From contig CP003179.1 in NCBI GenBank assembly GCA_000237975.1, forward strand, positions 1,364,001 to 1,428,000: DNA of 64,000 nucleotides, in the 5' to 3' direction. The stretch comes from Sulfobacillus acidophilus DSM 10332 (GTDB taxonomy: Bacteria; Bacillota; Sulfobacillia; Sulfobacillales; Sulfobacillaceae). The notes below the pieces were generated by a model that saw only the letters and a program-made list of their open reading frames with translations, had not been told where the DNA came from and searched no databases. The translations under genes were made by a program, and so were the position numbers. This document shows positions 35,788-39,769 of the stretch, in pieces. The first letter of the stretch is position 1. The number at the start of each line of letters is the position of its first letter.

Positions 35788-36618
35788 GTGAACAGCATGA
35801 GCTGGACGGCAGCCAGCCTGGTGTTCGCGTCGGCGGGGCTTCACGTGACGTGGAACCATTGGGTTCGGCATCAATCGGGGCGATTAGTCGACGTCTGGGC
35901 TATGGTCTCGAGCGGCGGTGTGGTCGCCGCCGTGGCCGCTCTCGTCATTGGAGGAACGGTTGATTGGGCGCGGGCCTGGCCTTATATCATCGCGACCGGC
36001 CTCATTCATACCGTGTATTTTCGGTTGTTGGCCCGTGTCTACCGGGTGCGGCAGTTGGCGGAAGGCTACACCGCTTCGCGCGGCGTCGGCGTGCTGTTGA
36101 CCGCGGGGACGGCTTGGGGGTTCGGGATAGAGCCATGGCGGGGAGATCATATTTTAGGTATTGGGCTGACCGTGCTGGGGATCGGATTGGTGGCGGGGCG
36201 GCCCAGGCGGTATTTCCGTTCCGGGTTCGGCACGATTCACGGGGTCGGTCTGACCATTGCCGCCTACTCGCTGACCGACAGTCTAGCCGTCCACTGGGTG
36301 GCGCCCGATGTCTATGTGGCGCTCCTGTATTTGGGGGCGGCCGTCGGTCTTTGGCCGGCGGTGTGGCAGGAAGGGACCCGCGCGATCGGGTGGCCAGCGG
36401 CGCTCGCTGCCGGAATCGGCAGCGTGTTATCGTATGCGCTGGTTTTGTGGGCGTATCGACTAGGCCCGGTGGCCTCCATCGTCGCAATTCGGCAAGTCGC
36501 CCCGGTGTTGGCTACCGCGTGGGACGGTTGGCAACGCCGACTTCAAGATCCGGTGCCTTCACGGGTCTGGTGGGGCACCCTGTTCGTCGTCGGGGGCGCT
36601 ATCGTACTGGTCGGTTAG
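35788..36618 (+). CDS. DMT-superfamily (EamA-like) transporter
   Basis: A 276-residue polytopic membrane protein with about nine to ten short hydrophobic helices arranged as two repeats, ending WWGTLFVVGGAIVLVG as EamA proteins often do (internal RQVAPVLATAW block). The substrate is unknown. The start is GTG 35788 or ATG 35797; the ribosome-site spacing does not decide. It is divergent from the amidase and its last 60 nt overlap the end of the convergent lysR-type gene. Confidence 0.75.
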   Translation: MNSMSWTAASLVFASAGLHVTWNHWVRHQSGRLVDVWAMVSSGGVVAAVAALVIGGTVDWARAWPYIIATGLIHTVYFRLLARVYRVRQLAEGYTASRGVGVLLTAGTAWGFGIEPWRGDHILGIGLTVLGIGLVAGRPRRYFRSGFGTIHGVGLTIAAYSLTDSLAVHWVAPDVYVALLYLGAAVGLWPAVWQEGTRAIGWPAALAAGIGSVLSYALVLWAYRLGPVASIVAIRQVAPVLATAWDGWQRRLQDPVPSRVWWGTLFVVGGAIVLVG

Positions 36619-37503
36619 GGCTTTTCGGCGGACCGCACCGACAAACGATTGGGCGGCCAGATGATGTTCCAACCGCGTCGGTTGGGTGACCAAATAAAAC
36701 GGGCGCCGCAGATCGACCCCCAGCAACGAGCGGGAAATGGTATGGGGAGTCGGACGAGCCTCCAACAGACTTTGGGACACGAATCCGACTCCAAGACCGG
36801 ACGCGACCGCGTCAATCACGGCGGCGGCACTGTCGACTTCCAATACGATGCGTAAGCGGGTAGAATGCCCTGCTTGACGAATCCGCTCGAGGGCGACGTG
36901 CCATGTGCCGGAGCCAGATTTGCGGCCGATAAAGGGGAAGGTCGTCACGTCGTCCCAAGCCACCGGCGAAGGGAGGTCCCGATACGGCTTTTTATCCGGG
37001 GCCAACAATAAAATTTCGTCGGCGGCCACCGGGACGGCCCTCAAACCGACGTGGGCGGGTTTTATCCCCATAAAACCGACGTGGGCGTCACCGGCCAACA
37101 ATTGGGCTTCTACCGCCTGTGAAGACATTTCCGACAGGACAAACCGGACCCCCGGATATTGGAGTTGAAAATCGGCCAACAGGTTGGGCACCAGACTGAC
37201 GGCGGGACTGGTACTGCTGGCAATCCGCACGGTGCCGATGAGCGAACGGTCCGAGTCCATTAATCGCCGGAGTTCGTGATATTGTCGGGTAACGGATTCC
37301 GCGAATTCGAGAAACAGGACACCCGTCGGGGTAAGCGTCAGCGGTAACGTATCCCGCTGTAACAGCGGGCGCCCAATTTCTTCTTCTAACGCCTTCAGGC
37401 GGCGACTGGCGTTGGGCTGACTCATGGCGACCTGGCGGGCGGCCGCCGTGACACTTCGTTGGCGGGCAACCGCCATAAACAATTTCAGATCTTCCAGGGT
37501 CAT
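36559..37503 (-). CDS. LysR-family transcriptional regulator
   Basis: A 314-residue LTTR. The N-terminal winged helix-turn-helix reads LKLFMAVARQRSVTAAARQV then MSQPNASRRLKALEEEIG. The effector domain includes GTVRIASSTSPAVSLVPNLL and VASGLGVGFVSQS, close to the CysB/CysL/CbbR branch that often senses small anions or metabolites. It is divergent from selD with 92 nt between starts, and an ATAC-N7-GTAT site lies in that gap. LTTRs usually control the divergent neighbour, so selD is the likeliest target. Its 3' end runs 60 nt into the opposing transporter gene. Confidence 0.92.
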   Translation of the reverse strand: MTLEDLKLFMAVARQRSVTAAARQVAMSQPNASRRLKALEEEIGRPLLQRDTLPLTLTPTGVLFLEFAESVTRQYHELRRLMDSDRSLIGTVRIASSTSPAVSLVPNLLADFQLQYPGVRFVLSEMSSQAVEAQLLAGDAHVGFMGIKPAHVGLRAVPVAADEILLLAPDKKPYRDLPSPVAWDDVTTFPFIGRKSGSGTWHVALERIRQAGHSTRLRIVLEVDSAAAVIDAVASGLGVGFVSQSLLEARPTPHTISRSLLGVDLRRPFYLVTQPTRLEHHLAAQSFVGAVRRKALTDQYDSAPDDEQGAPPDP

Positions 37504-37561: not shown

Positions 37562-37595
37562 GGTGAGACCGATATCGCTCGAAGGGGGTGAACCC

Positions 37596-38642
37596 ATGGC
37601 CCATCTACGGCTTACACAAATGACCTCCAAGTCGGGGTGAGGCTGCAAGCTCGGTCCAGAGGAGCTGGATCACGTGCTTGCGGGCGTTCCGCGTTCGGTA
37701 TTTTTTGATCCCCGGGTATTAGTCGGGAATGAAACCCATGATGATGCCGGGGTCTATCAATTGACCGAGGACACCGCCATGGTGCAAACGGTGGATTTCT
37801 TTACCCCGGTGGTGGATGACCCCGAGATTTTCGGCCGGGTGGCGGCAACCAATTCGATTTCCGACATCTATGCCATGGGCGGAACGCCCCTGACGGCATT
37901 AAATCTCTTAGCGGCGCCGGCGGATAAGCTGGATGCCGACGTGATTGCCAAAATGCTGTGGGGCGGCCAGCAAGTGATGGACGCACACCGGACCTATGTG
38001 CTGGGTGGACATTCGATTGACGATCCGGAACCCAAAATGGGGTACGCGGTGACGGGAATCGTTCACCCGCGGCATATTTGGCGAAATAGCACGGCGTCGC
38101 CCGGCGAGTGGCTCTACTTGACCAAGCCGGTCGGATCGGGTGTGGTGATTAAGGCCATCAAAGATGGCGTCGCGACTTTGGAGGAAACCGAAGCGGCCGT
38201 CCAGATGATGACGACATCGAACCGCGACGCGGCGGAAGCCGTTAAGGCGGCGGTCGGCGATCCCGGGGCTTGTACGGATGTCACGGGATTCGGATTGATT
38301 GGCCACGTTTGGGAAATGGCCGAAGGAGCGGCGGTAGCTATCGAACTCTCCTTATCGCAGATTCCGTTTTTGCCGGGGGCCGTCACCTACGCCGAAAATG
38401 ATCGATTTCCCGCCGGAAGCCGGCGCAATTGGGAACATTTTCGGCCGCATGTGGAATTGGCGTTGCCGGATGGACCTCAGGTCCGGCTGTTAGGAGATGC
38501 GGTGACATCGGGGGGGTTGTTGTTCACCGTCCCCGAGGCCAAACGGCCGGTCATCGAAGAGGGGTTTCAGGCCAGAAACCTCCCATTATATCGTATCGGC
38601 CGGGTGCTGGAGGACACGCCGCATATCCGATTAGTGCCCTAG
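37596..38642 (+). CDS. selD: Selenide, water dikinase (SelD), a selenocysteine-containing form
   Basis: Reading from ATG 37596 (RBS AAGGGGG) gives MAHLRLTQMTSKSG, then an in-frame TGA at 37638-37640, then GCKLGPEELDHVLAG and an unbroken frame to 38642. TGA is at codon 15, and the context SG-U-GCK matches the SelD active-site loop where Cys17 of E. coli SelD stands; Lys18 corresponds to the essential Lys20. The rest is canonical: DDAGVYQLTEDTAMVQTVDF, RVAATNSISDIYAMGG, GGHSIDDPEPKMGYAVTG. A SECIS-like hairpin follows the TGA. The product is 348 residues and makes selenophosphate from selenide and ATP. An annotator that stops at TGA would call only 37674-38642. Confidence 0.94.
37645..37681 (+). 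promoter_or_regulatory. Bacterial SECIS element in selD
   Basis: The lower stem GCAAGC (37645-37650) pairs with GCTTGC (37676-37681). The upper stem GGTCCAG (37653-37659) pairs with CTGGATC (37665-37671), with one G-U pair. The apical loop is AGGAG (37660-37664), with G at its second position. The loop begins 19 nt after the UGA, inside the range known for bacterial SECIS elements, which bind SelB to recode UGA as selenocysteine. Confidence 0.85.
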
Positions 38643-38650
38643 CAGGAAAG

Positions 38651-38683
38651 CCCCCAGAGAAAAATCTCTGGGGGTTGCCGTTT
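38651..38683 (+). terminator. Terminator after selD
   Basis: A perfect ten-pair stem CCCCCAGAGA / TCTCTGGGGG with an AAAA loop, followed by TTGCCGTTT. It lies 8 nt after the selD stop and 48 nt before the permease start, so the permease is probably expressed by read-through or its own promoter. Confidence 0.82.
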
Positions 38684-38722: not shown

Positions 38723-39769
38723 ATGTCAATGCCTTTAGCCCCAAATCCGGCTTCTCGCCGAACCGGCTGGGCCGCGGGCCTTTTTATCGCGATTTTTGTC
38801 CTCGGGGTCTTTTACGCCAAATGGGATCCCTATTATTTGAAGGCATTCTATGTGGCCAGCCATCATACCCTGGGAGCCAGTATCGTGACCGGGCATCACC
38901 CTGGTGCGCCGCCGGTAGGCCTTTCGGCCGCTATCCATTATACGGTGGCTTATTTTAAAGATATTTGGATCGCGTTAGTGGTGGGTCTCTTGGTCGGAGC
39001 CGGTGTGCAGACGCTGTTGCCGACGGATTGGCTGATGCGCATTTTGGGCCGGCGATCCGTCGCCAGCCGCGGGATTGCCTTAGCCGCGGCGGTGCCTTCG
39101 ATGATGTGTACGTGTTGCAGCGCGCCCATTGCGGTGAGTTTAGCCAAGCGACAGGTTTCGTATGGCGCGATATTGGCCTATTGGTTGGGAAATCCCGTAT
39201 TGAATCCGGCAACGATCATTTTTATGGGATTCGTGTTGGGCTGGAATTGGGCATTATATCGCATCGTGATGGGTCTTTTATTGGTCGGAACGGCAGCTTG
39301 GCTGGGCGACCGATGGGGAAAGGCGAATGATTTAGAAGCCCCGCCGCCAGTGGTCGATTCCGAACCGCCCTCTTTCGGTCGGTTCTTGCGCGTGCTTGGG
39401 AAACTGGCAGCCGGGCTTTTGCCGGAATACCTGGTCATTGTGGCCCTTTTGGGGGCAACCCGGGCCTGGCTCTTTCCGGCCATGTCACCCGCTTTGGGCC
39501 ATAGTCTTGGTCTGATGCTCATTTTAGCCGTGGCGGGTACGTTATTTGTCATTCCCACCGCCGGCGAGATTCCCATCGTTCAAACCCTGATGGGATATGG
39601 GTTGGGGATTGGTTCGGCGGCCACCTTAATGATGGTGTTGCCGGCGATCAGCTTGCCGTCCATGGCGATGGTCGGGCAAGGATTACCCAAAAAGCTTTTG
39701 CTGACGATTGCCCTCCTGGTCGTGCTGATGGGGATACTTACCGGGCTTTTGGCTCCTCTCGTTCTTTAA
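38723..39769 (+). CDS. YraQ/UPF0718-type permease
   Basis: A 348-residue polytopic membrane protein of the COG0701 permease family, with about eight to nine helices. A cysteine cluster, MMCTCCSAP, sits at the start of a helix near residue 131 and is typical of this family; the NPVLNPATIIF motif follows, and a second half-repeat contains IPTAGEIPIVQTL. Relatives include candidate arsenic and metal(loid) permeases, but the substrate is unsettled. Location right after selD makes a selenium link worth testing. ATG 38723 follows GAAGGTGA. Start at 38729 is also possible. Confidence 0.8.
   Translation: MSMPLAPNPASRRTGWAAGLFIAIFVLGVFYAKWDPYYLKAFYVASHHTLGASIVTGHHPGAPPVGLSAAIHYTVAYFKDIWIALVVGLLVGAGVQTLLPTDWLMRILGRRSVASRGIALAAAVPSMMCTCCSAPIAVSLAKRQVSYGAILAYWLGNPVLNPATIIFMGFVLGWNWALYRIVMGLLLVGTAAWLGDRWGKANDLEAPPPVVDSEPPSFGRFLRVLGKLAAGLLPEYLVIVALLGATRAWLFPAMSPALGHSLGLMLILAVAGTLFVIPTAGEIPIVQTLMGYGLGIGSAATLMMVLPAISLPSMAMVGQGLPKKLLLTIALLVVLMGILTGLLAPLVL

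Follow-up and report, generated by a model that had tools for sequence, protein, structure and literature searches.

The DNA analysed here (the window) is a stretch of 64,000 nucleotides of Sulfobacillus acidophilus DSM 10332, whose genome comprises two contigs and 3,557,831 bp, of which the chromosome accounts for 3,472,898 bp. The part of interest is organized around a gene for selenide, water dikinase (SelD), with these features in window coordinates:

36559 to 37503, minus strand: LysR-type regulator, LysR_Se-like, divergent (best NCBIfam model NF040786)
37582 to 37590, plus strand: probable ribosome-binding site AAGGGGGTG, upstream of the ATG at 37596, as judged by reading the sequence
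37596 to 38642, plus strand: selD, predicted selenoprotein form, 348 aa, selenocysteine (Sec) as residue 15 (TIGR00476, structures, TGA conservation)
37638 to 37640, plus strand: UGA codon, predicted to be read as selenocysteine, coinciding with the catalytic Cys/Sec of SelD
37645 to 37681, plus strand: SECIS hairpin (folding, synonymous recoding, wobble conservation)
37645 to 37650 and 37676 to 37681, plus strand: its outer stem, GCAAGC/GCTTGC, read directly
37653 to 37659 and 37665 to 37671, plus strand: its core stem, GGTCCAG/CTGGATC, with one G.U pair, read directly
37660 to 37664, plus strand: its loop, AGGAG, with G second, beginning 19 nt past the UGA, read directly
38723 to 39769, plus strand: ArsP_1 (PF03773) permease with an MMCxCC motif, downstream of selD (domain match)

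From the ATG at 37596 to the TAG at 38640–38642 the reading frame meets a single in-frame interruption, the TGA at 37638–37640, which is codon 15 and lies within the peptide RLTQMTSKSG-U-GCKLGPEEL. Family and active-site motif identify the gene clearly as selD: the recoded protein scores 363.4 bits against TIGR00476, where the curated equivalog cut-off is 125, and 329.8 bits against PRK00943, where it is 299. Aligned to the solved structures 3u0o and 2yye, residue 15 falls opposite the catalytic-site cysteine, and the GCK that follows (SG-U-GCK), a signature expected of SelD, is also present in 3u0o. The first-pass annotation had placed the TGA exactly at the catalytic Cys/Sec and proposed alignment with SelD families as a check; the direct reading, the family score and the two structures all agree with it.

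Is this UGA a codon or the end of a shorter gene? Gene calling that is blind to recoding reports an open reading frame of 322 aa, from GTG 37674 to 38642, truncated as the first annotation had foreseen, and one might take this for the real gene, the TGA being a true stop or an error for TGC or TGT. The resulting SelD would lack the catalytic Sec/Cys as well as the lysine. We compared the locus with a set of 61 related genomes, the window's own included, 49 of them SelD-positive and 12 SelD-negative. One in-frame TGA is present in 50 of the 51 SelD matches, at 42–66% identity between the window protein and the matched relatives. In the loci that were inspected its place is SG-U-GCK or a closely similar motif, and the peptide is conserved on both sides, while SelD orthologues of Bacilli have cysteine codons at the same place, so that this position is kept as Sec or Cys, as expected of a selenoprotein gene. 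Because the TGA is kept so widely and replaced by cysteine in Bacilli, both a sequencing error, which the earlier annotation had named as a possible refutation, and a true stop can be regarded as excluded for practical purposes. Another option is that the UGA is read as cysteine by some other tRNA, for example an extra, Sec-shaped tRNA-Cys. The genome does possess a second tRNA-Cys of this shape and the cysteine of Bacilli SelD is what such a reading would produce. However, the extra tRNA carries a GCA anticodon, unable to pair with UGA, the genome has a tRNA with a UCA anticodon together with the full Sec machinery, and the hairpin following the UGA is selected only in UGA genes (see below), leaving cysteine insertion very improbable. 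The preferred reading is that selD is a selenoprotein gene, its UGA at 37638 decoded as selenocysteine within a complete bacterial selenocysteine system, and the sequence evidence makes this almost certain.

The extra tRNA-Cys(GCA), on the minus strand at positions 1497–1591 of locus L012 (G000:C1:1007562–1007656), deserves a remark of its own. It has the architecture of tRNA-Sec, with a 6-bp D stem closing a 4-nt loop, a long variable arm and U73, it has matches in 15 other relatives, and it resembles the known selC* class of tRNA-Cys (PMC7609411). It is not the sole tRNA-Cys of the genome, an idea that we rejected, a canonical one being found at L221 174–248.

The machinery genes are all present in the genome, along with other genes carrying a UGA at a known Sec site (strand is given where recorded):

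C1:1509670: selB, 354.9 bits for its entire length, including the SECIS-binding winged-helix domains 2 and 3 of SelB
C1:1319384: selA, 551 bits
C1:1103216: tRNA-Sec, anticodon TCA (UCA), 73 bits
L141, TGA at G000:C1:983613, minus strand: formate dehydrogenase; the TGA precedes HAPSVAGL, and a hairpin whose loop is GGTCT comes after it
L148 and L151: two peroxiredoxin-family genes, whose TGA falls on the peroxidatic position, in TPV-U and in TGG-U

A working SelA/SelB/tRNA-Sec system, implied by the first annotation, which would have fallen had selB and tRNA-Sec been absent, thus has all its genes in a single genome, and the further selenoproteins that it held probable are represented by the formate dehydrogenase and the two peroxiredoxins. 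The search for other UGA genes went through chosen families, so that the count is at least three besides selD. A second SelD-like match (C1:2661904–2662497) is weak, at 26% identity, and was not counted as a second SelD. Among the relatives, SelB passes the cut-off in 46 of the 49 SelD-positive genomes, as against one of the 12 SelD-negative ones. Discordant cases exist: G020 and G052 have a Sec-type SelD and no SelB over the cut-off, G059 has a Sec-type SelD with a partial SelB only, and G005 has SelB and no SelD. Three of them (G020, G052 and G059) are draft genomes, and assembly gaps are possible in G020, G052 and G005.

Just after the UGA, the window displays the hairpin that had been announced, with its stem, its loop of five bases, G as the second of these, and its spacing of 19 nt. 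Folding of the RNA from 37638 to 37692 yields −25.2 kcal/mol, a z of −2.24 relative to dinucleotide-shuffled sequences. Among alternative synonymous codings for this peptide the element stands out more sharply (z −5.4), with none of 400 equally stable; among 200,000 synonymous versions both stems occurred together in 0.08% and the core alone in 4.3%. The 7-bp core contributes −9.9 kcal/mol, and the scan by SECIS rules gave −12.7. The bacterial SECIS model (PMC13188914) asks for a loop of 3–9 nt with G as its first or second base, 16–37 nt from the UGA, and an energy of at most −7.5, all of which the hairpin satisfies. It is further similar to the SECIS of the Escherichia coli fdhF type, being a short stem-loop after the UGA with the same loop G and the same range of spacing, while the loop itself differs, AGGAG in the window's selD, GGA in the selD of relatives and GGTCT in the formate dehydrogenase of this genome. 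The prediction of a bacterial SECIS is borne out as far as the rules go, but the rule is permissive, and by itself it is weak evidence: of the window's 41 comparable TGA codons, 18 pass it, as compared with 5 of 25 TAG and 12 of 53 TAA codons. Because the bare rule is so unspecific, the case rests on conservation across relatives, where the evidence is strong. Rfam at its gathering threshold found no SECIS in the window, which does not count against one, and a covariance model that was built mostly captures the SelD peptide.

Conservation can be separated from the needs of the protein by setting Sec genes against Cys genes. Compared with synonymous recodings, the core hairpin of 25 Sulfobacillales Sec genes is more stable (mean z −2.86), which does not hold for that of 20 Cys genes (mean z +0.23). 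The fifth codon after the UGA is GGT in 24 of the 25 Sec genes, although about 12% of the glycine codons in sampled window ORFs are GGT, and the third base of the seventh codon is G in all 25. Both positions vary in the Cys orthologues; the wobble bases are frozen in the Sec genes only. These comparisons of sequences show purifying selection on the hairpin in UGA genes, beyond what the peptide requires. The RNAalifold consensus structure contained no pair changed on both sides.

The two parts of the stem fare differently. Both exist in the window, as had been claimed, but the outer stem is not conserved: in the alignment of relatives no other genome has GCAAGC/GCTTGC in full. The core itself comes in two forms. 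Most relatives have GGTCC-GGA-GGACC, with the loop 17 nt after the UGA; in the window and in L026, L027, L028, L035, L055 and L061 the stem is centred 3 nt further, with the loop 19–20 nt after the UGA, the first register being disrupted in the window by a G.G at positions 17–27. A few sequences are able to form both registers, and the peptide is nearly the same across them (alignment A1). The SECIS thus occupies two registers one codon apart among relatives, under the same protein constraint.

By analogy with the established mechanism of E. coli, we infer the following course of events. A ribosome arriving at UGA 37638 would receive Sec-tRNA(UCA) from SelB bound to the downstream hairpin, with its G at loop position 2, and Sec would be placed at the catalytic position of SelD. 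The enzyme would then convert selenide and ATP to selenophosphate, which SelA would use to make more Sec-tRNA, for formate dehydrogenase, for the two peroxiredoxins and for SelD itself, an enzyme that would in this way depend on its own product.

The neighbours of selD may also be linked to selenium. The divergent LysR gene, which is kept beside selD in several relatives, scores 188.6 bits against NF040786 (selenium metabolism LysR), the best of 47 models; because this lies under the cut-off of 250, we name the regulator LysR_Se-like only. LysR_Se itself has been described as a selenium regulator (PMC5322559). In the gap that separates selD from the permease, at about 38651–38674 of the window, lies a strong inverted repeat, CCCCCAGAGAAAAATCTCTGGGGG, with no T run, possibly acting as a terminator or attenuator.

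The lead with the most promise is the permease. Its orthologues (E up to 1e-25), in which the MMCxCC motif is invariant, are found in 34 of the 49 SelD-positive genomes and in none of the 12 SelD-negative ones (p 1e-5, kinship being ignored), and coordinate comparison places the gene next to selD, upstream or downstream, in 11 genomes. Of 18 Bacilli loci (L069–L086), 13 have it no more than about 0.5 kb from a Cys-type selD and a fourteenth has it at a greater distance, mostly in divergent orientation; three Bacilli loci that were scanned have selD and then mnmH (selenouridine synthase). This linkage to selD makes the permease a candidate selenium-linked transporter, for import or export. We also advance, as a tentative and rather doubtful proposal, that the permease is dedicated to selenium transport, for the sake of selenocysteine in Sulfobacillales and of selenouridine in Bacilli. 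We found no literature joining ArsP or COG0701 with selenium, nor is the permease named as a selenium transporter in the selenium-metabolism literature searched, and as such it looks undescribed.

As a selenoprotein gene, the window's selD is a further, ordinary example: selenoprotein SelD has long been known, and the use of Sec by Sulfobacillus has been reported before. Sec-containing bacterial SelD (selenophosphate synthetase of the SPS2 type) has been surveyed (PMC4561486), and the window protein shares its family, its Sec position, a SECIS directly after the UGA and an encoded SelA/SelB/tRNA-Sec set, with no functional difference seen. Within the genus, formate dehydrogenase (PMC4378227) and the peroxiredoxin PrxU (PMC7409299) are already described as Sec proteins of the same system, in passages on these proteins that do not mention SelD. 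There remains a practical consequence, as recoding-blind gene calling moves the start to GTG 37674 and removes the active site of the very enzyme that defines selenium use. For the organism, the picture would be that of an acidophile whose enzyme for activating selenium requires the product that it makes. Finally, both a 2026 review (PMC13188914) and a 2024 study (PMC11097638) state that prokaryotes have no known transporter specific for selenium, a question on which a permease linked to selD bears.
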